From the NCBI GenBank assembly GCA_027023165.1, contig JALVWX010000148.1, positions 1-32,212 of the forward strand: 32,212 bases of DNA, read 5' to 3'. Below, piece after piece: positions 15,360 to 22,743 of this stretch. Numbering within the stretch: the stretch's first letter is position 1; each line of letters opens with the position of its first letter. The translations under genes were made by a program, and so were the position numbers. The DNA comes from Thermococcus sp. Lineage in GTDB: Archaea > Methanobacteriota_B > Thermococci > Thermococcales > Thermococcaceae. Below the pieces are notes generated by a model. That model searched no databases. It saw only the letters and a list, made by a program, of their open reading frames with translations, and was not told where the DNA came from.

Positions 15360-16277
15360 TCACTCTACGAGTTTTAGGAATATTTCTTCTAAGCTTGGTT
15401 CTTTTACTTGCATCGTCAGGATTTTTGCTCCTTGAGAAGCCACGAAGTCGTGCAACTCTTCCCTTATATCATCCGGGGCAACGACGCGATACTTGTTCCC
15501 ACCGAGGGGAGTCACGCTCCACTTAGCGGAACTCCAGTCAACCGGCTTATTGGTCTCAATGATAATCGTGTAACCGGCCTTCCTCAGGAATTCACGCTTG
15601 ATGTTCTCAATGCTGTCCTCAAGGATTAGCCTGCCCTTAACAATCACTCCAACCGTATCACAAACCTCCTCAACGTGGGCCAGAATATGACTCGAGAAGA
15701 AGACGGTTTTTCCAGCCTTTCTCTGCTCTCTAATGACCTCCTTGAACTCGGCGATGCCCTTTGGGTCGAGGCCGGTCATTGGCTCGTCGAGGATTAAAAG
15801 CTCCGGGTCGTTGATTAACGCTTGAGCTAAGAGAAGCCTCTGGCGCATTCCTTTAGAGAACTTGCCAACCTTCTTGTTCTTAACGTCCTTGAGTCCAACA
15901 AGGTCGAGAAGCTCGTTAATCCTCCTTTCCCTCTCGGCCTTTGGAATTCTGAAGGCGTCAGCGATAATGTCGAGGGTTTGGACTGGAGTTAGGAAGTCCC
16001 AGAGGGTAGCGTGCTCGGGCATGTAGCCGATTCTGGCTTTAGCCTCGACGAGCTTTTTCTCGTCGAACTTTCCGTTCCTGAAGACTTCCTCGCCGAGGAG
16101 TTCGATTCTTCCCTTTTGGGGAAAGACCAGGCCGAGTAAGCTCAGGATTGTCGTGCTCTTTCCTGCTCCATTCGGGCCGAGGAAGCCGTAAACCACTCCT
16201 TCTGGGACTTTGAGGTTGAGTCCGTTTAAGGCCCTGACATCCTTGTAAGTCTTGACAAGATTCTCAACCACAATCAT
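15360..16277 (-). CDS. ABC transporter ATP-binding protein (ABC-2 export type)
   Basis: This 305-residue protein is the only ATPase of the four-gene export operon. Walker A is GPNGAGKST (34-42), the signature FSKGMRQR, Walker B LLILDEP, and a switch-type FFSSHILAHVEE is present. After the ATPase core comes a C-terminal domain of about 90 residues (YTIIIETNKPVDW, ending EPSLEEIFLKLVE), as in NatA/CcmA-like exporters. The ATG at 16277 has GAGGTG six bases before it. GTG at 16286 and ATG at 16283 are in frame but lie on that ribosome site. The site overlaps the stop of the upstream permease, so translation is coupled. The exported substrate is not readable from the sequence. Confidence 0.9.
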   Translation of the reverse strand: MIVVENLVKTYKDVRALNGLNLKVPEGVVYGFLGPNGAGKSTTILSLLGLVFPQKGRIELLGEEVFRNGKFDEKKLVEAKARIGYMPEHATLWDFLTPVQTLDIIADAFRIPKAERERRINELLDLVGLKDVKNKKVGKFSKGMRQRLLLAQALINDPELLILDEPMTGLDPKGIAEFKEVIREQRKAGKTVFFSSHILAHVEEVCDTVGVIVKGRLILEDSIENIKREFLRKAGYTIIIETNKPVDWSSAKWSVTPLGGNKYRVVAPDDIREELHDFVASQGAKILTMQVKEPSLEEIFLKLVE

Positions 16278-16282
16278 CACCA

Positions 16283-17203
16283 TCACCTCAAATCCATTCT
16301 TTTGAACCTGATTAATGCCAGAGCGAGGTAAACGGGGATAAGACCCACTATAACTCCAGTTTGAACAGGATCCTGTGAGAGGGCATGCCTGACTCCAAGA
16401 TACTCAACGGTGTACGTGCCGTCGGCGTTGAACTTCATCGTCTCAACGTCTTTGATAACGTCCAGCATGAGCACCTGCGGAACGTAGAAGAGGTACTTCA
16501 GATGGTACTCCCTGTAAAGCTCGTCGAGACGCTCCTGGTAGGCCGTTCTCTGCTCGGGGGAGAGCTTTACAAAGTCGCCTCTCTCATGGAGCCCGAACTC
16601 CTTGTCAACCCTGTCCTTTGCCCATCCATCAACGATCTGGGGAGCTACAAGGCTTGTGACGAAGAATATCACAAGGGCCAGCCCCAATGCAGTGTTCGAG
16701 GAGCGGACGAAGGTTGAAATGAGCAAACCGAGGGCTAAAAGCTGGAGCATCGCCAGGAGAACCAGGCCGTTGGCCAGCGTAAGGTCCGAGACCAGTCTCC
16801 AGCTGAGGGAGAGGCCGTAATGCTTCGTTATGGCGAAGGAGAGAAGAGTTGCGAATATCATGGCGGTTACTATGCTGACGCTCTGGCCAAGGAACTTTCC
16901 GAGCAGGTAGGAAACCCTCCCAAGTGGCTTGCTGAGGGCTATTCTGACCGTTCCGTCCTCAAGGTCGGAGTTCACGGAGGTTGCTCCTACCATGAGGGCG
17001 TAGACGCCGATAAAGAGGAAAGCGCTGATGGCAATGTAGCCGATTAGACTCGTGACGAGCACCTCCTGTGGATTTGTTGCCCCTTCAAGGTTGTCCTTTA
17101 TCTCCCTGAAAGCCATTGCGTAAATCAGCAAAATCAAAACCAGTATCAGCCAGAACTTCTTCGTCCTGAGACTTTTCTTCAACTCCAGCTCAAACCCCCA
17201 CAT
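16283..17203 (-). CDS. ABC-2 type permease subunit, single module
   Basis: This 306-residue permease has about six membrane segments. It begins with a basic LKKSLRTKKFWLIL helix typical of ABC-2 permeases. After the second helix it carries the cytoplasmic LEDGTVRIALSKPLGR motif that is thought to contact the ATPase, followed by YLLGKFLGQ. A soluble loop of about 60 residues (VDKEFGLHERGDFVKLSPEQRT to LYREYHLKY) precedes the last helix. It ends by overlapping the ribosome site of the ATPase gene and starts 4 bases after the preceding permease. Confidence 0.87.
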   Translation of the reverse strand: MWGFELELKKSLRTKKFWLILVLILLIYAMAFREIKDNLEGATNPQEVLVTSLIGYIAISAFLFIGVYALMVGATSVNSDLEDGTVRIALSKPLGRVSYLLGKFLGQSVSIVTAMIFATLLSFAITKHYGLSLSWRLVSDLTLANGLVLLAMLQLLALGLLISTFVRSSNTALGLALVIFFVTSLVAPQIVDGWAKDRVDKEFGLHERGDFVKLSPEQRTAYQERLDELYREYHLKYLFYVPQVLMLDVIKDVETMKFNADGTYTVEYLGVRHALSQDPVQTGVIVGLIPVYLALALIRFKRMDLR

Positions 17204-17207
17204 TCTA

Positions 17208-18761
17208 TCACCTCAGATCAGCTTTCTTAAACCTGAGCCACGAAATTGCGAGGTAAACCATCGTGGGCACGACCAGCATAGATAGATTACTGGGATAGTT
17301 GAGAATCTCATTAAGGGACTTTGGCGGAAGGTTCCTCTTCGGGGAGACCGCCATCTTAAGTACGTTGTAGTGCAGGGTAGGGCTCGGCGCGGGAAGGGAG
17401 TTCTTGGATAAGGCATCAACGAAGGAGTCTCCTGAAGAGGCCGATGCAATGGTGACAGAGATGGGCACGGCGAAGGCCAGCAAGAAGGCGAAAACCAGCG
17501 AGAGGAGGAGTGCCTTCCTTCCCCTCATGAAAACCGAGAGAAGGTAGCCGAGGGCCAGATACTGGAGGAGCGAGAGGAAAAGGAGGGAACCAAAGGCAAG
17601 GCCGAGTTCGAAGGTTCTGCCTGAAGGAGAGCCGAGGTGCAGGGCGTAGGCAACGATGAGGGCCGCGTAGAAAGCAACGCCCACAAAAACCGCGAAGATA
17701 TCACTGAGGAGCGTTCCGAGGAAAAAGTCTCCCCTCTTCATCGACTTGCTCAGGAGAACCCTGACGGTTCCGTTCTCAATTGCCGAGCCAATCGAGAGCG
17801 CCCCGAGGGGCAGGACTACGAAGGGCAGGAAGACGCTGTTCAGGGCCGAGATTACGGCATTCAAAAGGCCTGGAACGCCGAAGTCTGAGTGATAACCCCC
17901 GAGCATGTCAAAGTTAAGGAAGACCGTCATGATGGCCAGGGCGAGGAAAGCTATGAAGCGCCTGCTCTGAAGGCTTAACCCGAGGAAAACGCCGTAAAGC
18001 CCGCGGGGGGAGAAGGAAAAGCCGGAGACCGAGAATGACTCAGGGCTCCTCAGCTCCCTCCTCCGGAAGGCTTCCATCCCAACGAGCGAGAGTGCAACGC
18101 ACAGGGCTAATAGCCCGGCAACGGCGCGATAAGAGACCGAGAGGCTCTCCCCGAAGGAAAGAGCTCTTTCAAGGTAAACCGTCGGGATGAACGAGTAATC
18201 GGACTTTGCAAGGAGAAGGAGCACGACGAACGCTCCAAGCCCGAGGAAGACTCCCGAATCTCGGGAAGTTGCGAAGGGAAGGAGGAGCAGGGCGATTCCA
18301 ATCACACCAACCAGCGAGAGCGAAAGGGCGAGGGAGCCGGAGAGGTAGTCTCCAACCGCGAAACCGTGAGCCAGCATCGCGAGTGCTCCCGAGAGGACTA
18401 TTCCAAGGGTGGAAAGTAGGGCGAGCTTCAACCCCTCAGAGATCCAGTCGAGGAAGTAGCGCCTCCTAGTGAGGGGTTTTGAGAGAAGGAGCGTAACGTT
18501 CCCCCGCTCGAAGTCCGAGCCGAAGCGCGAGAGGAGAATGATTAGCAGGACCGGTATGAAGAGGAACTTGATGAAATTCGGAAGCCATTTGACTAGCAGG
18601 TCGGCGGTGATAAGATAGGCAAGCTCCTCGGCCGGAATATTCGGGTAATGGGCGGTAAATCTGTAAACATCTATCTCGACTGCTATGGCTGGGAAGAGGG
18701 AAATCAGGACAAGCGCTATCCCCTGACCTTTTAACCAGCCCATTACCTGTGGTTTTCTCAT
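17208..18761 (-). CDS. ABC-2 type permease, internally duplicated
   Basis: This 517-residue protein has about twelve membrane segments in two repeated halves. Each half carries the ABC-2 coupling pattern: FERGNVTLLLSKPLTRRRYF in the first (about residue 90) and ENGTVRVLLSKSMKRGDFF in the second (about 330). An extended loop (SGDSFVDALSKNSLPAPSPTLHYN) lies before the last helix. The start overlaps the end of the preceding permease by 4 bases, so it is translationally coupled. The fused halves suggest it could form a full channel alone, or pair with the neighbours. Confidence 0.85.
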   Translation of the reverse strand: MRKPQVMGWLKGQGIALVLISLFPAIAVEIDVYRFTAHYPNIPAEELAYLITADLLVKWLPNFIKFLFIPVLLIILLSRFGSDFERGNVTLLLSKPLTRRRYFLDWISEGLKLALLSTLGIVLSGALAMLAHGFAVGDYLSGSLALSLSLVGVIGIALLLLPFATSRDSGVFLGLGAFVVLLLLAKSDYSFIPTVYLERALSFGESLSVSYRAVAGLLALCVALSLVGMEAFRRRELRSPESFSVSGFSFSPRGLYGVFLGLSLQSRRFIAFLALAIMTVFLNFDMLGGYHSDFGVPGLLNAVISALNSVFLPFVVLPLGALSIGSAIENGTVRVLLSKSMKRGDFFLGTLLSDIFAVFVGVAFYAALIVAYALHLGSPSGRTFELGLAFGSLLFLSLLQYLALGYLLSVFMRGRKALLLSLVFAFLLAFAVPISVTIASASSGDSFVDALSKNSLPAPSPTLHYNVLKMAVSPKRNLPPKSLNEILNYPSNLSMLVVPTMVYLAISWLRFKKADLR

Positions 18762-19996
18762 CTAACTCCCTCCCATCTACCCAGCTCCATTCTAGTCGCA
18801 CGCATGTAAGCCAAGGCAATGAACGGAAGAGTGATGATCATGAACAGGAAAGCCACCAATAGTGATTCCTCTTGAAGTGCTGGGCTGATAATGAGTGCGA
18901 GGAACGGTAGCAGGGCAAGTGCCAGTTTCCTGCTGAAGAGTCCTATAAAGAAGGTAACCGCCCCCGTAAGGAGAACTACTAAAATGGAAAAACCCAGAAC
19001 GGGTGTAAAAAGGGCAAAAAGTCCAGAGATTACAAGAAAACGCCTTATCAGATAAGTTCTCTTCACTGGCTTGCTGAGAATCAAAAGGGGATTTTCGGAG
19101 AGAAGCTCAATCACGGACAGTGGAAGAAGAAAGAGGGCAAAGAAGGCCTTCATTATTCTACCAACGGGCAGGAGAAGAGCAATTAAAAACACAAAGAAAG
19201 CACGCGAGGCCCACAAACCCGCGATCTCCTTACGAACCCACCAGGGGAGAAACCTGAGATACACCGCCGGAATTGAAGGCCTGAGGAAGTCTCCAGGTTC
19301 GAAACGGAGGAAAATCAACAGGGAAAGGGATAGCAATAGTACTGTAAAACCAATCGTGATTCCAACCCTCAGGTACGCATCACCCATATCCTCAGAGCCC
19401 AAATCCCTAGAAAAGAGTTCAAGCTGTACTCCTGGGGAGAAAAAGGCATAGTTGCCGTACCTCCGTTCGAGAGCATGAACAAGGTGGGAATACTCGGCCT
19501 TCTTGGACTCATAATCCGCCAGGGTTTTGATTCCCAGAATTTTCTGGGCATCATTTTGAACCTTCATATCTATATACCCCATGGGCACGAACGTGAGGAT
19601 TAGGAAAACCAGAGTACCGACAAGGAGGGTTCTTCTCGGATTTCTCGTGAGAAAGGCTGTAAGATATCCCAGCGGGAGAAACGGAAGGACAAAAATTGCA
19701 TAGATGAATGCTGTGGGCTTCACGAGTGCTGGGAGGACCACAATAAGTGCCAAAAGCATGTGCGAGAGCAGAAAGCCTACAAACACTTCAATCCTCTTAA
19801 AGGGCTTTGAGAGGATTAGCTCCAAGCCCGTGGCTAAACCGGCTGGAAAAACCGAGGAGAGGAGAAAACCGAGAACGATGTAAGGAACCACGGGAGAGAT
19901 CTCCACATCAGCAAGCAAAGTAATAAGCGTGAGGACTAAGGCAATGAGAATGGTTAGGAAGAGACGATGTGCTTCTATCTTGAGCAGTGCTCTCAT
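18758..19996 (-). CDS. ABC-2 type permease, internally duplicated, first gene of the export operon
   Basis: This permease has about 412 residues from the ATG at 19996, which has GGTGAT a few bases upstream; the GTG/ATG codons between 20026 and 19996 lack one. Nine to twelve membrane segments fall in two halves, each with the coupling motif (LILSKPFKRIEVF and LLILSKPVKRTYLI). The first half has a soluble loop of about 80 residues (DAQKILGIKTLADYESKKAEYSH and after). The coding sequence is visibly richer in A and T than the surrounding operons (many AAA and ATA codons), suggesting faster drift or acquisition. A TATA-like box at 20033-20041 starts the operon. Confidence 0.83.
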   Translation of the reverse strand: MRALLKIEAHRLFLTILIALVLTLITLLADVEISPVVPYIVLGFLLSSVFPAGLATGLELILSKPFKRIEVFVGFLLSHMLLALIVVLPALVKPTAFIYAIFVLPFLPLGYLTAFLTRNPRRTLLVGTLVFLILTFVPMGYIDMKVQNDAQKILGIKTLADYESKKAEYSHLVHALERRYGNYAFFSPGVQLELFSRDLGSEDMGDAYLRVGITIGFTVLLLSLSLLIFLRFEPGDFLRPSIPAVYLRFLPWWVRKEIAGLWASRAFFVFLIALLLPVGRIMKAFFALFLLPLSVIELLSENPLLILSKPVKRTYLIRRFLVISGLFALFTPVLGFSILVVLLTGAVTFFIGLFSRKLALALLPFLALIISPALQEESLLVAFLFMIITLPFIALAYMRATRMELGRWEGVR

Positions 19997-20032
19997 GCTA
20001 TCACCTTTTGTCATCCGAGTGACCATATGAGG

Positions 20033-20041
20033 CTTTTAAAA
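20033..20041 (-). promoter_or_regulatory. Promoter of the three-permease ABC operon
   Basis: Minus-strand TTTTAAAAG predicts transcription near 20010 and a leader of about 14 bases carrying GGTGAT. The T-rich tract just upstream (20042-20066 in minus sense) could also terminate the peptide operon, so the two units may be separate. Confidence 0.5.
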
Positions 20042-20070
20042 ATAAAATGTTAAAGTCTAAAAACCAAACA

Positions 20071-20253
20071 CTAAAAAGGATCTAAATTACACAGGTCCAA
20101 TCGTCCGCAAGTGTCAATCAGTAGGCATCCTGCTCCGTCATAGTCACAGCTATCCCACAGTCTGTAGCCACCATTGTCTTCCACACATGAATCGCTAAGC
20201 CAGCACATGGGTTCTATTCCAGTTTGGGGTCCCCCTCCAATTTTCCGGAACAT
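20071..20253 (-). CDS. Cys/Asp-rich small peptide A (60 residues)
   Basis: I do not recognise a family. The 60-residue product has six cysteines at 17, 23, 36, 43, 49 and 55. The spacing C-x5-C, then x12, x6, x5, x5, gives a repeating unit C-x-x-x-D-(S/T/L)-C: CWLSDSC, CLLIDTC, CGRLDLC. Tryptophan and Asp are frequent, basic residues few, and the first 16 residues (MFRKIGGGPQTGIEPM) are Cys-free and could be a leader. There is no hydrophobic signal peptide. A strong ribosome site, GGAGGT at 20262-20267, lies 8 bases before the ATG, which argues for real translation. It follows the related 37-residue peptide by 18 bases. Disulfide-rich, metal-binding or modified-peptide roles are all possible; none is shown. 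Confidence 0.6.
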   Translation of the reverse strand: MFRKIGGGPQTGIEPMCWLSDSCVEDNGGYRLWDSCDYDGAGCLLIDTCGRLDLCNLDPF

Positions 20254-20261
20254 TAGTATGT

Positions 20262-20267
20262 ACCTCC
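20262..20267 (-). promoter_or_regulatory. Ribosome binding site of Cys-rich peptide A
   Basis: GGAGGT, a full match to the anti-Shine-Dalgarno sequence, sits 8 bases before the ATG at 20253 and 4 bases after the upstream peptide's TGA. It decides that the 60-residue frame starts here rather than being the tail of one longer gene. Confidence 0.7.
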
Positions 20268-20271
20268 AAGG

Positions 20272-20385
20272 TCACTTGTAGTCTCTGCCACAGCTATCTC
20301 TGATCTTGCAGTTCCCGTAGTCGTAGTCACAGCTGTCAAATAGCCAGCATCCCCCACTGTCAATGGTGTTGCTATCCAAACCCAT
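20272..20385 (-). CDS. Cys/Asp-rich small peptide B (37 residues)
   Basis: The 37-residue frame has four cysteines at 13, 19, 26 and 32, spacing C-x5-C-x6-C-x5-C: CWLFDSC, then DYDYGN, then CKIRDSC. It shares CWL-x-DSC and DSCDYD with the 60-residue neighbour and has a similar C-terminal CGR-x-D. No signal peptide is present. A stop codon immediately precedes the ATG, so the frame cannot be longer at its 5' end. The ribosome site is weak (GATGGG would serve a TTG at 20379), so the exact start is open; coupling to the lipoprotein gene that ends 28 bases upstream is likely. The shared pattern with peptide A is the main reason to believe it. Confidence 0.5.
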   Translation of the reverse strand: MGLDSNTIDSGGCWLFDSCDYDYGNCKIRDSCGRDYK

Positions 20386-20413
20386 CTACAAGCTTGAATC
20401 AACTATCGTTTAA

Positions 20414-20761
20414 TCACTTCCCTCTGAGGCTTATGTCGAGGCTTATGGAACTATCACCCTCGTTTCTGATGATGACCCTCCAGGAACCCTCTGGAAGCTC
20501 CACCGTCTCCTTGACCTCGGTTACATTTGTTCGCTTGAACAGCTCCTTCGAGCCATCGGACGATATTATGAGTAGGGTAAACGGACCGTTTCCAGAAATC
20601 TTTATCTCCAGAGTGGCAGGCCCCTTAAAGGGATACATAATCTCGGAACCCGACTTAAGGACTTTGCCCTTTGAGTATACGAAATTTCCACCGCCAAGGC
20701 ATCCTCCTAGCAGGGCACTAACCAAGATTATTGTTAAAAATTTCATTGATGCCATTCTCAT
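20414..20761 (-). CDS. Small secreted lipoprotein of unknown function
   Basis: The product has 115 residues, with an N-terminal signal FLTIILVSALLGGC ending in a lipobox (LGGC, Cys21) and a glycine spacer, so the mature form of about 95 residues is tethered outside the cell. The mature part is strand-rich (ATLEIKISGNGPFTLLIISSDG, TVELPEGSWRVIIRN, SISLDISLRGK). It reads like a small beta-sandwich, similar in feel to emp24/GOLD or pre-peptidase folds; this is inference. The start at 20761 has GGGGGGA a few bases upstream; ATGs at 20755 and 20746 are alternatives. It is first in a unit with the two Cys-rich peptides, so it may bind, present or protect against them. Confidence 0.68.
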   Translation of the reverse strand: MRMASMKFLTIILVSALLGGCLGGGNFVYSKGKVLKSGSEIMYPFKGPATLEIKISGNGPFTLLIISSDGSKELFKRTNVTEVKETVELPEGSWRVIIRNEGDSSISLDISLRGK

Positions 20762-20850
20762 ATAATCCCCCCGTTATGCATTTGTACAAAATAAAGCTCA
20801 GATCAAGTTGCCAGACATTGTACTCTAACACCTCCGAAAAAATTGTAGTT

Positions 20851-20862
20851 AATATTTATAAG
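20851..20862 (-). promoter_or_regulatory. Promoter of the lipoprotein / Cys-rich peptide unit
   Basis: Minus-strand CTTATAAATATT is a strong TATA box within a 132-base, AT-rich gap, predicting transcription from about 20830. The leader is then about 70 bases, unusually long for this genome. It begins with GGAGGTG (20830-20836), which has no gene behind it apart from a six-codon frame at 20818. The remainder of the gap shows nothing else that I can identify. Confidence 0.6.
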
Positions 20863-20893
20863 ATTTTCTATTCATTTAAAGAATAATAGAGTA

Positions 20894-21892
20894 TTAAAAT
20901 TTTTCTACCCTATCAAAACGACCAAAAATAAGCAAAAACACATCTTCAAGTGATAGCTCCTCAACCCTAATCTGGAGAGCACCCCTTGAGGAGAGAAACC
21001 TCACGAACTCATCGACCTCGTTGAGTTTGAGGTAAGCCGCGACGTGAGTGTAGTCCCCTTTGGTGAGACACCGAGCCATGGGCAATTTACCACATTCGAC
21101 CCTTCCCCTAACAATCGCGCTGACCTTTTTATCAACCGGAACCCTGAGCTTCTTGCTTATCTCCTCGGGCTTTCCCTCCAGGATAGGCCTCTTGTTGAAG
21201 AGCAGAACCCTGTCGCTCAGCTTCTCCGCCTCCTGGAGGTCGTGGGTGGTGAGGATAACCGTTGTCCCAAAGTCGCGGACGAGGGCCATTATTGCGTCAT
21301 GTATCTCGCTCTTGGTTATCACATCGAGAAAAACCGTCGGCTCGTCGAGTATGAGGTACTTCGGCCTTACCACCAGGGCGGAGGCGATGTAAACTTTCTG
21401 CTTCATTCCGGCCGAGAGCTTCTGGTACCACTCGTCCCTCTTCTCCCACAGGTTCAACAGCTTGAGCGCGTACTCTATGCGCTCCCCTATCTCACCCTCG
21501 GGGACTTTCCACAGCCTCGCGATGAACTTAAGGTTCCGATGAACGCTTAAGCGCCACTGGAATACCCCCCACATGTCCCTCTCGCCGGTGAAAACCGTGA
21601 ACATCTCCCTCGCAACTTTGCCGTGCTCCCTAAAGCTGTCGTGGCCGCCGATGAGCAGTTTTCCAGAACTCGGCTCGAGGAGGCCGTTGGCAATTTTACA
21701 GAGAGTCGTCTTCCCCGCGCCGTTGGGGCCGAGGAGGCCAAATATCTCTCCCTCCTCCACCCGGAAGTTCAGGTCTATGAGGGCCGGAATCTTCTCCCTG
21801 GGCCTTCCGAGAAAATCACGGAGGCTATCGAAATCGAAGAAGCCCCTGAAAGGGGGTGGGTAGTACTTGGTGAGATGCTCTGCTTCTATCAT
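20894..21892 (-). CDS. ABC transporter ATP-binding protein (DrrA/NatA-like)
   Basis: The product has 332 residues. An unusual insertion (PPPFRGFFDFDSLRDFLGRPREK, residues 12-34) precedes Walker A GPNGAGKTT (55-63). The signature is LSAGMKQK, Walker B is YLILDEPT, and the switch region is LTTHDLQEAEKL. A C-terminal domain of about 100 residues ends EELSLEDVFLLIFG, as in exporters of the DrrA type. The same N-terminal insertion style (P-F-x-G-F with a K-I-P-A-L continuation) occurs in ATPases paired with ABC-2 permeases resembling ABC-type multidrug or polysaccharide exporters. It lies 9 bases downstream of its permease. Confidence 0.9.
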   Translation of the reverse strand: MIEAEHLTKYYPPPFRGFFDFDSLRDFLGRPREKIPALIDLNFRVEEGEIFGLLGPNGAGKTTLCKIANGLLEPSSGKLLIGGHDSFREHGKVAREMFTVFTGERDMWGVFQWRLSVHRNLKFIARLWKVPEGEIGERIEYALKLLNLWEKRDEWYQKLSAGMKQKVYIASALVVRPKYLILDEPTVFLDVITKSEIHDAIMALVRDFGTTVILTTHDLQEAEKLSDRVLLFNKRPILEGKPEEISKKLRVPVDKKVSAIVRGRVECGKLPMARCLTKGDYTHVAAYLKLNEVDEFVRFLSSRGALQIRVEELSLEDVFLLIFGRFDRVEKF

Positions 21893-21901
21893 CCGACCAC
21901 C

Positions 21902-22699
21902 TCACACGTGCCCTAGGGTGCCCAGCTGCATCGCCTTTCTAACACCCCACCGAAACATCGCGATTCCAACCAGGAGCATGACACCCGTGGTCAGGGCAAG
22001 GTTCACGAAGCTGGGCCAGATCTGGGACACTGAATAGCCCCCACCCATCGTCAGCCTAGCCATCTCAAGAATGTACCTCTCGGGGTGTATCTTGGAAATA
22101 GGCTGGAGCCACCAGGGGAGCGCGTCGGGCGGGAAGTAGAGACCGCTCACGAGCTGGGAGGTGAGGTTGAGGAACCAGTTTACAGGGTCCTGTCTCGCTT
22201 TGGTGGCAGCCCGAAAGCCCGCCGAAAAAAGTTCGAGTGCGAAGGTGAGGGTGAATCCCGCGAGGATAACGAGCAGGGCACCGAGGTTGATGTGTATGAC
22301 CAGGCCGTAGAAGAGAACGAAGACTGCCGTTATCAGGCCCATTATCATGAGGCTCCAGACGACGTTCCAGGCGTTTATTCCCACAAAAATTGCCACCATT
22401 CCGGCGGGGGAGGCGTAGAGCATAGGGAAGCTCCGTCCAATTAGGAGCTTGGAAAGGCTGCCCCTCGGAAGGAATATTAGGTTGTGCACGATGAAGCCTA
22501 TCAGAAAGAACTGGAGGAAGGAGTCGGTTCCATACTGTTCGATGTTCGCATTTATGGTCACCAGACTGGCGAATATTCCCATCACCGCAACTTGGATCAG
22601 AAGACCTATCAGATAGCTGACCACGTCCCAGCGGTAGCTGAAAAAGACTTCTCTTTGGATGTCGAAGAACTCGTGGACTATTTTGGCATCTTCTTTCAT
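21902..22699 (-). CDS. ABC-2 type permease (DrrB-like)
   Basis: This 265-residue protein has six membrane segments. An N-terminal amphipathic stretch (FFDIQREVFFSYRWDVVSYLIG) leads into helix 1. The ABC-2 signature appears before the last helices (LVSGLYFPPDALPWWLQPISKIHPERYILE), which matches the FPxxxLPxWLxxIsxxxPxxy pattern of drug and polysaccharide exporters. ATG at 22699 is preferred. GTG at 22705 is in frame, but the TATA box at 22727-22734 predicts a start of transcription near there. The gene is followed closely by its ATPase. The substrate is unknown. Confidence 0.87.
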   Translation of the reverse strand: MKEDAKIVHEFFDIQREVFFSYRWDVVSYLIGLLIQVAVMGIFASLVTINANIEQYGTDSFLQFFLIGFIVHNLIFLPRGSLSKLLIGRSFPMLYASPAGMVAIFVGINAWNVVWSLMIMGLITAVFVLFYGLVIHINLGALLVILAGFTLTFALELFSAGFRAATKARQDPVNWFLNLTSQLVSGLYFPPDALPWWLQPISKIHPERYILEMARLTMGGGYSVSQIWPSFVNLALTTGVMLLVGIAMFRWGVRKAMQLGTLGHV

Positions 22700-22743
22700 T
22701 TCCACCGGACAAAGTTAAAAAAGAGATTTAAAAGAATATCGGC

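Follow-up and report, generated by a model that had tools for sequence, protein, structure and literature searches.

The window analysed here, the whole of the 32,212-nucleotide Thermococcus sp. contig JALVWX010000148.1, carries on its minus strand two adjacent small frames rich in Cys and Asp, a 60-residue frame (peptide B) and a 37-residue frame (fragment A) (Table 1). Both are present as the original prediction, made from the DNA alone, had drawn them, and the Cys spacing that it described is confirmed as x5,x6,x5 in the shorter frame and x5,x12,x6,x5,x5 in the longer. The GGAGGT site that it assigned to the longer frame lies at 20262-20267, ending 8 nucleotides 5' of the ATG. The motifs CWL-x-DSC and DSCDYD are shared by both frames, as claimed, but the shorter frame has CGRD rather than CGR-x-D. 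Judged by alignment, the 37-residue frame corresponds to the 3' portion of a gene rather than to an intact one: its ATG falls within sequence homologous to the 3' flank of a lipoprotein gene in genome G017, T. celericrescens (G numbers denote the genomes compared). We saw no Shine-Dalgarno sequence in the 30 nucleotides 5' of this ATG, and fragment A may be untranslated.

Curated families gave no match to either window peptide. Single-sequence searches with peptide B returned no match from the protein collection and 28 pattern matches, none confirmed, from the genome contigs. After these searches had come up empty, relatives were reached through the neighbouring 422-residue protein. Peptide B has a 69% match in G041 (E 2e-25) and two tandem homologues in G071 (78% and 53%; E 6e-25 and 2e-12). 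These homologues sit at an equivalent position, 5' of 422-residue-protein relatives that are only 49-50% identical, which argues that the frames are not chance products. The original prediction had proposed looking in relatives for kept frames with synonymous-rich change, and this is what we found: across a 44-codon core, G071 and G041 differ by 24 synonymous and 2 non-synonymous codons, and 42 of the 44 residues match. The lack of a curated family for either window peptide and of a protein-collection match for peptide B could suggest that the frames arose by chance in an intergenic region. However, the homologues, their codon changes and their conserved place refute this for peptide B, and for the frames as a pair it is extremely improbable.

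Profile searches, using first 5 and then 14 sequences, reached nine of the 94 Thermococcaceae genomes searched at E <= 1e-7 (G086, G041, G017, G094, G062, G024, G071, G056 and G018), and inspection added G044, making ten. Weaker matches, including those with E > 1e-7 in the 14-sequence search, were not counted unless followed individually. Two or three peptides lie in tandem in eight of the ten genomes, with one each in G041 and G044. The loss of the open frame or of the Cys pattern in relatives, which the original prediction had named as evidence against itself, was not encountered in these ten genomes. On the other side, the profile search found no peptide in G059 or G028, whose 422-residue proteins are the closest (92% and 80%), an absence that is weak for G059, where the contig starts 482 bases before that gene. 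A short Cys/Asp-rich frame before a transporter gene in G001 (locus L001, 3370-3468, plus strand; CVIDLCPEESCGTVRDTDCLRLDII) lacks the leader described below and was not counted in the family; it is possibly a decayed core.

By comparison of the relatives, the peptides divide into a hypervariable core and, ahead of it, a leader that typically reads MF[KR][KR]LN...P.EP. Among the first peptides of nine loci, leader identity exceeds the identity of the core outside matched Cys and Asp in 34 of 36 pairs. In G071, G062, G024 and the near-identical G017/G056/G018 group, 13-14 of 15-16 leader residues are identical, against 2-6 of 14-23 such core residues. The leaders of G086, G094 and G044 are more divergent, so the leader, on these alignments, is conserved but not fixed. 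We analysed the cores of 21 peptides, a set that includes fragment A but neither an incomplete copy from contig C46 of G056 nor the CefA-like peptides described below for G048 and G024. Their 764 residues comprise 130 Cys and 147 Asp but only 14 Glu and 26 Lys or Arg. Asp follows Cys at +3 in 60 of the 130 cases, at +4 in 51, and at either or both in 109, compared with 44.2 +/- 4.8 in 2000 shuffles, a contrast that is descriptive because the peptides are related.

In nine genomes the gene for a radical S-adenosylmethionine (SAM)/SPASM enzyme of about 483 residues overlaps at its 3' end with the first peptide, and all nine genomes that have this orthologous enzyme carry the peptides directly behind it. 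The profile-detected peptides and the enzyme, each present in 9 of the 94 genomes, co-occur in eight (Fisher p 7e-10; G044, found by eye, was excluded from the test). Among 115 genomes of the phylum, which include the 94, the orthologue is confined to the same nine, and the one match outside Thermococcaceae is weaker (G114, E 2e-72, 37% identity). Alignment, Pfam and a structure model together identify a CX3CX2C motif, SPASM cysteines and an N-terminal recognition domain, and the invariant cysteines, by comparison the cluster ligands among them, are C109, C113, C116, C341, C359, C397, C400, C406, C410 and C429. The loci bear the signature of precursors of ribosomally synthesized and post-translationally modified peptides (RiPPs): a modifying enzyme encoded next to a precursor whose leader is conserved and whose core varies.

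The many Cys and Asp residues would also be accounted for if the frames encoded mini-proteins that stay unmodified and are disulfide-rich or bind metal, the enzyme being an incidental neighbour, and metal binding by the bare peptide is compatible with the data. However, overlap with the enzyme gene in 9/9 genomes, a leader more constant than the core and Asp at a fixed offset after most Cys tell against this, and radical SAM/SPASM enzymes with recognition domains are described as acting on peptides (PMC6231123, PMC8172795). We therefore regard mini-proteins as very unlikely. Of the three roles that the original prediction had offered, the adjacency of enzyme and peptides supports a substrate for peptide modification and disfavours an unmodified disulfide-rich or metal-binding peptide.

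The maturase resembles those of ranthipeptides, PapB by profile and CteB by structure. Five maturases score 273-289 bits against the PapB profile NF047865 (cut-off 340), which among the matches listed is the best NCBIfam family for four of them and the second-best for the fifth. The same five score 247-255 bits against the SCIFF maturase TIGR03974 (cut-off 425) and 104-125.3 bits against CefB NF038107 (cut-off 600). In a structure alignment that used 34 of the 78 proteins found, the model aligned over residues 7 to 447 to 5wgg, which is CteB (PMC6231123).

The original prediction knew of no family with this Cys pattern, but Cys-X3-Asp repeats are the pattern of PapA/freyrasin (PMC9413430). PapB links Cys to the beta-carbon of Asp within CX3D motifs, and in vitro it tolerates CXnD spacings with n from 0 to 6, those of 0 and 6 poorly (PMC9413430); the acceptor carboxylate is stressed there and in PMC8172795. 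The Paenibacillus PapA/PapB system and the Thermococcaceae loci have in common multiple Cys-Xn-Asp motifs, a leader and core, and a radical SAM/SPASM maturase; a P. kribbensis protein named PapB is 31% identical to a Thermococcaceae maturase over 93%. They differ in that PapA has six CX3D motifs (PMC9413430) whereas CX2D is about as frequent as CX3D in the Thermococcaceae cores, in the two or three precursors at 8 of 10 loci with the first overlapping the enzyme gene, and in the archaeal host and a maturase below the PapB cut-off. In the SCIFF system CteA/CteB (thermocellin), the CteA acceptor is Thr (PMC8172795), whereas the Thermococcaceae core offers Asp.

Given Asp-paired cores, a leader and this enzyme, Cys-Asp thioethers are the likeliest modification, and judging by homology the system probably yields a ranthipeptide-like product bridged by such thioethers. 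A different radical SAM product, such as an alpha-carbon sactionine or a carbon-carbon link, would sit easily with an enzyme that falls below every cut-off among the families listed and for which the nif11 and QhpD maturase profiles score near PapB, nif11 slightly higher than PapB for G071. The abundance of Asp over Glu, Lys and Arg and its position after 109 of 130 Cys match the Cys/Asp pairing of PapA instead, and make another product improbable. By analogy with PapA/PapB and CteA/CteB, the leader would dock on the N-terminal recognition domain of the maturase, which would link core Cys to Asp 3-4 residues downstream by a thioether. We guess that the leader would then be removed, and that the product might be exported by the neighbouring ABC-2 transporters (of the ATP-binding cassette, ABC, type) and serve in competition or signalling.

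The window holds a broken copy of such a locus. Starting in the upstream ABC ATPase, homology of the window to G071, G062, G024 and G017 continues across the maturase Shine-Dalgarno sequence as far as the first codons, where it ends. On the other side of the junction at 20806-20811, the window again aligns without a break to G056 (85% over 445 columns), beginning at the stop codon of the second G056 peptide and extending into the lipoprotein gene. Thus, relative to G056, the window lacks about 1.74 kb: both the first and the second peptide, and all of the maturase beyond its first three or four codons. A tblastn search of the window with four maturases gave a best E of 0.01, elsewhere in the window, and only the first codons of the enzyme gene remain. 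The original prediction had reported no modifying enzyme in the window; there is indeed no complete one, but the surviving start of the gene had been overlooked.

Downstream, a second junction separates window 20373-20686, which matches the G017 lipoprotein gene and its 3' flank (81%), from 20066-20372, which matches core A and peptide B of G071 (70%); a short sequence, TTGGATA, is shared at 20372/20373 (by eye). In G017 itself, the flank between the lipoprotein gene and the third peptide (L067 9520-9690) resembles, by eye, a maturase 3' end, which would fit duplication of a cassette together with the tail of the enzyme gene.

Peptide B has kept its leader and Shine-Dalgarno sequence but lost one Cys, leaving six of seven in the core: the Cys present in G071 and G041 is replaced by Tyr at residue 30. 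Its core differs at seven positions where G071 and G041 agree, including C30Y, D35S, D56N and G37D, and thus has one Cys and two Asp fewer and one Asp gained. Over the 44-codon core, synonymous/non-synonymous differences number 22/8 between the window and G071 and 16/8 between the window and G041. The extra replacements fit relaxed constraint after enzyme loss, although the sample is small, and the codon comparison of fragment A with G071 (13/3 in 31 codons) shows much of this codon history to be older than the loss.

We consider it likely that the frames are what is left of a pair of RiPP precursors and that the intact system of other Thermococcaceae makes ranthipeptide-like peptides; in the window the maturase and two precursor genes have been deleted. 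Peptide B would then be an orphan precursor and fragment A a leaderless fragment, neither of them matured there unless a maturase acts in trans.

Several points weigh against this interpretation. The product, its expression and its cross-link are predictions from sequence. The maturase falls below the cut-offs of PapB, SCIFF and every other NCBIfam family among the 25 listed of 73-78. CX2D (60) outnumbers CX3D (51) among the 130 core Cys, and according to one review PapB does not accept CX4D and, for the most part, not CX2D either (PMC8172795), which conflicts with PMC9413430. Because the 21 peptides are related to one another, the significance of the shuffle contrast is overstated, and the thresholds that delimited the Fisher test sets had been picked once the lists had been seen. 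We examined the window itself, and a maturase may lie elsewhere in its genome. The main point for use without a local enzyme is G041, which also lacks the orthologous enzyme, yet has a core nearly unchanged.

Peptide B could still be in use, either matured in trans by a maturase elsewhere or functional unmodified, the local enzyme being dispensable. What it has kept (leader, Shine-Dalgarno sequence and six core Cys) is consistent with this, as are the 24 synonymous differences between the G071 and G041 cores. A second maturase, 35-44% related to the first, occurs in 11 of the 94 genomes, including G041, and could act in trans. However, the core of peptide B has changed at residues shared by G071 and G041, with a Cys and two Asp lost; the second maturase gene of G041 contains an internal TGA; in G017, G018 and G019 the second maturase adjoins a different peptide with another leader; and the synonymous excess may predate enzyme loss. 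Continued use of peptide B is therefore unlikely, and an orphan precursor that is no longer matured remains our preferred account.

In G019, G017 and G018 the second maturase (38-42% related) overlaps the gene for this small Cys/Asp peptide, with the leader MEFEVVNPGD...CPFP.D.ECWWPEDICYRPEPI; the one such peptide scanned had no NCBIfam match. In G041 the gene (C5:47794-49155, L107), with its internal TGA, is a pseudogene or reflects a sequencing error, and no Cys/Asp peptide was seen beside it.

Table 1. Features of the window at and around the two frames, with the peptide frames beside the second maturase at other loci
Feature	Position	Strand	Remarks
Peptide B, 60 amino acids, precursor-like	20071..20253	-	ATG start; leader MFRKIGGGPQTGIEP; core with 6 Cys
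Fragment A, 37 amino acids	20272..20385	-	ATG start; precursor core without leader and first Cys motif
Recombination junction	20372..20373	.	Joins lipoprotein 3' flank to G071-like peptide A core
Small lipoprotein, 115 amino acids	20414..20761	-	Lipobox-like LLGGC (by eye)
Maturase gene remnant	20798..20818	-	ATG TCT GGC AAC = MSGN at 20807-20818 (the same in G017 and G024), followed by LI-stop contributed by sequence past the deletion
Deletion junction	20806..20811	.	About 1.74 kb lost relative to G056
Upstream region of deleted maturase gene, with Shine-Dalgarno GGAGGTG (20829-20835)	20819..20900	-	Conserved with G017, G024, G062, G071 (alignment) and G056
ABC ATPase, 332 amino acids	20894..21892	-	Homologue directly precedes maturase in G071, G062, G024, G094, G017, G056, G018
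Membrane protein, 422 amino acids	18758..20026	-	Directly downstream of peptides; probable ABC-2 permease
ABC-2 permease, 517 amino acids	17208..18761	-	PF12679
ABC-2 permease, 306 amino acids	16283..17203	-	PF12679
ABC ATPase, 308 amino acids	15360..16286	-	
Second-maturase locus L106	2921-3067	+	
Second-maturase locus L119	1241-1390	-	Whole frame
Second-maturase locus L120	1259-1408	-	Whole frame

The peptide clusters of three genomes (G056, G018 and G017) encode lipoproteins similar to that of the window; DNA that matches it lies also at L041 (G025) and L068 (G001), where no such peptide was found. Among the neighbouring transporter genes, that for the 306-residue permease is present in 18 of 94 genomes; among these are 8 of the 9 in which the profile detected peptides (p 3e-6) and 7 of the 9 with the enzyme. 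Its presence in ten genomes without profile-detected peptides tells against a dedicated function: we rejected the transporter as an exclusive part of the system, and its predicted role in export or immunity is only possible. The 422-residue protein showed no association with the peptides (2/9, p 0.36); it has no Pfam match at E 0.1, PF12679 was found in 2 of 14 homologues, and its closest relative is a Thermococcus sp. protein (93%).

A different class of precursor, with Cys at every fifth position as in CefA, is also found in Thermococcaceae, at L118 924-1329 (G048) and L095 1156-1671 (G024). The CefA/CefB system (NF038108/NF038107) likewise combines Cys-dense small precursors with a radical SAM/SPASM enzyme, and G024 has both kinds of peptide. 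The two CefA-type peptides tested (G048 and G024) have another leader, MEWIV.P, and score 50.9 and 58.7 bits, above the CefA cut-off of 30, whereas 18 of the 21 peptides of the present family were scanned and reached at most 20.8 bits. Membership in CefA was therefore rejected.

Archaeal ranthipeptide clusters have already been predicted in bulk (PMC12144867). No word starting with Thermococc was found in the main text of that study, according to which earlier validation of the archaeal RiPP clusters predicted had extended to just two haloarchaeal lanthipeptides. We recognised no description of this Thermococcaceae precursor family among the open literature listed, as judged by title or start of abstract; this is weak evidence of novelty, as subscription papers fall mostly outside that scope. 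Because the family falls short of the PapB, SCIFF and CefA/CefB cut-offs and no paper was recognised, we judge it a new variant of a known peptide class with previously predicted archaeal members, and the window copy a relic.

An enzyme and an overlapping precursor form a compact unit in these relatives, which are hyperthermophiles, and each link is predicted to lower the peptide mass by 2.016 Da. With every Cys linked, untagged peptides A and B of G071 would go from 6033.61 to 6021.51 and from 6835.99 to 6821.88, respectively. The maturase of such an organism may prove unusually stable, and the natural mixtures of CX2D and CX3D would probe how strict PapB-type chemistry is. The window records the breakdown of a cluster nearly to the base and accounts for orphan Cys/Asp peptides that are puzzling in isolation. 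More tentatively, and with considerable doubt, we suggest that archaea living at very high temperature make a family of thioether-bridged peptides in which the leader stays stable and the cores behind it are exchanged, as in an arms race. In this view some strains (G041 and the window) have lost the enzyme yet keep precursor and transporter, for example because the bare precursor or transporter immunity still pays.

The window from 15360 to 22705 and its matching loci form a variable stretch between transporter and ATPase genes, where the first permease changes between species and the peptides, the maturase, the lipoprotein and dipeptide-type permeases are present in some and absent from others.
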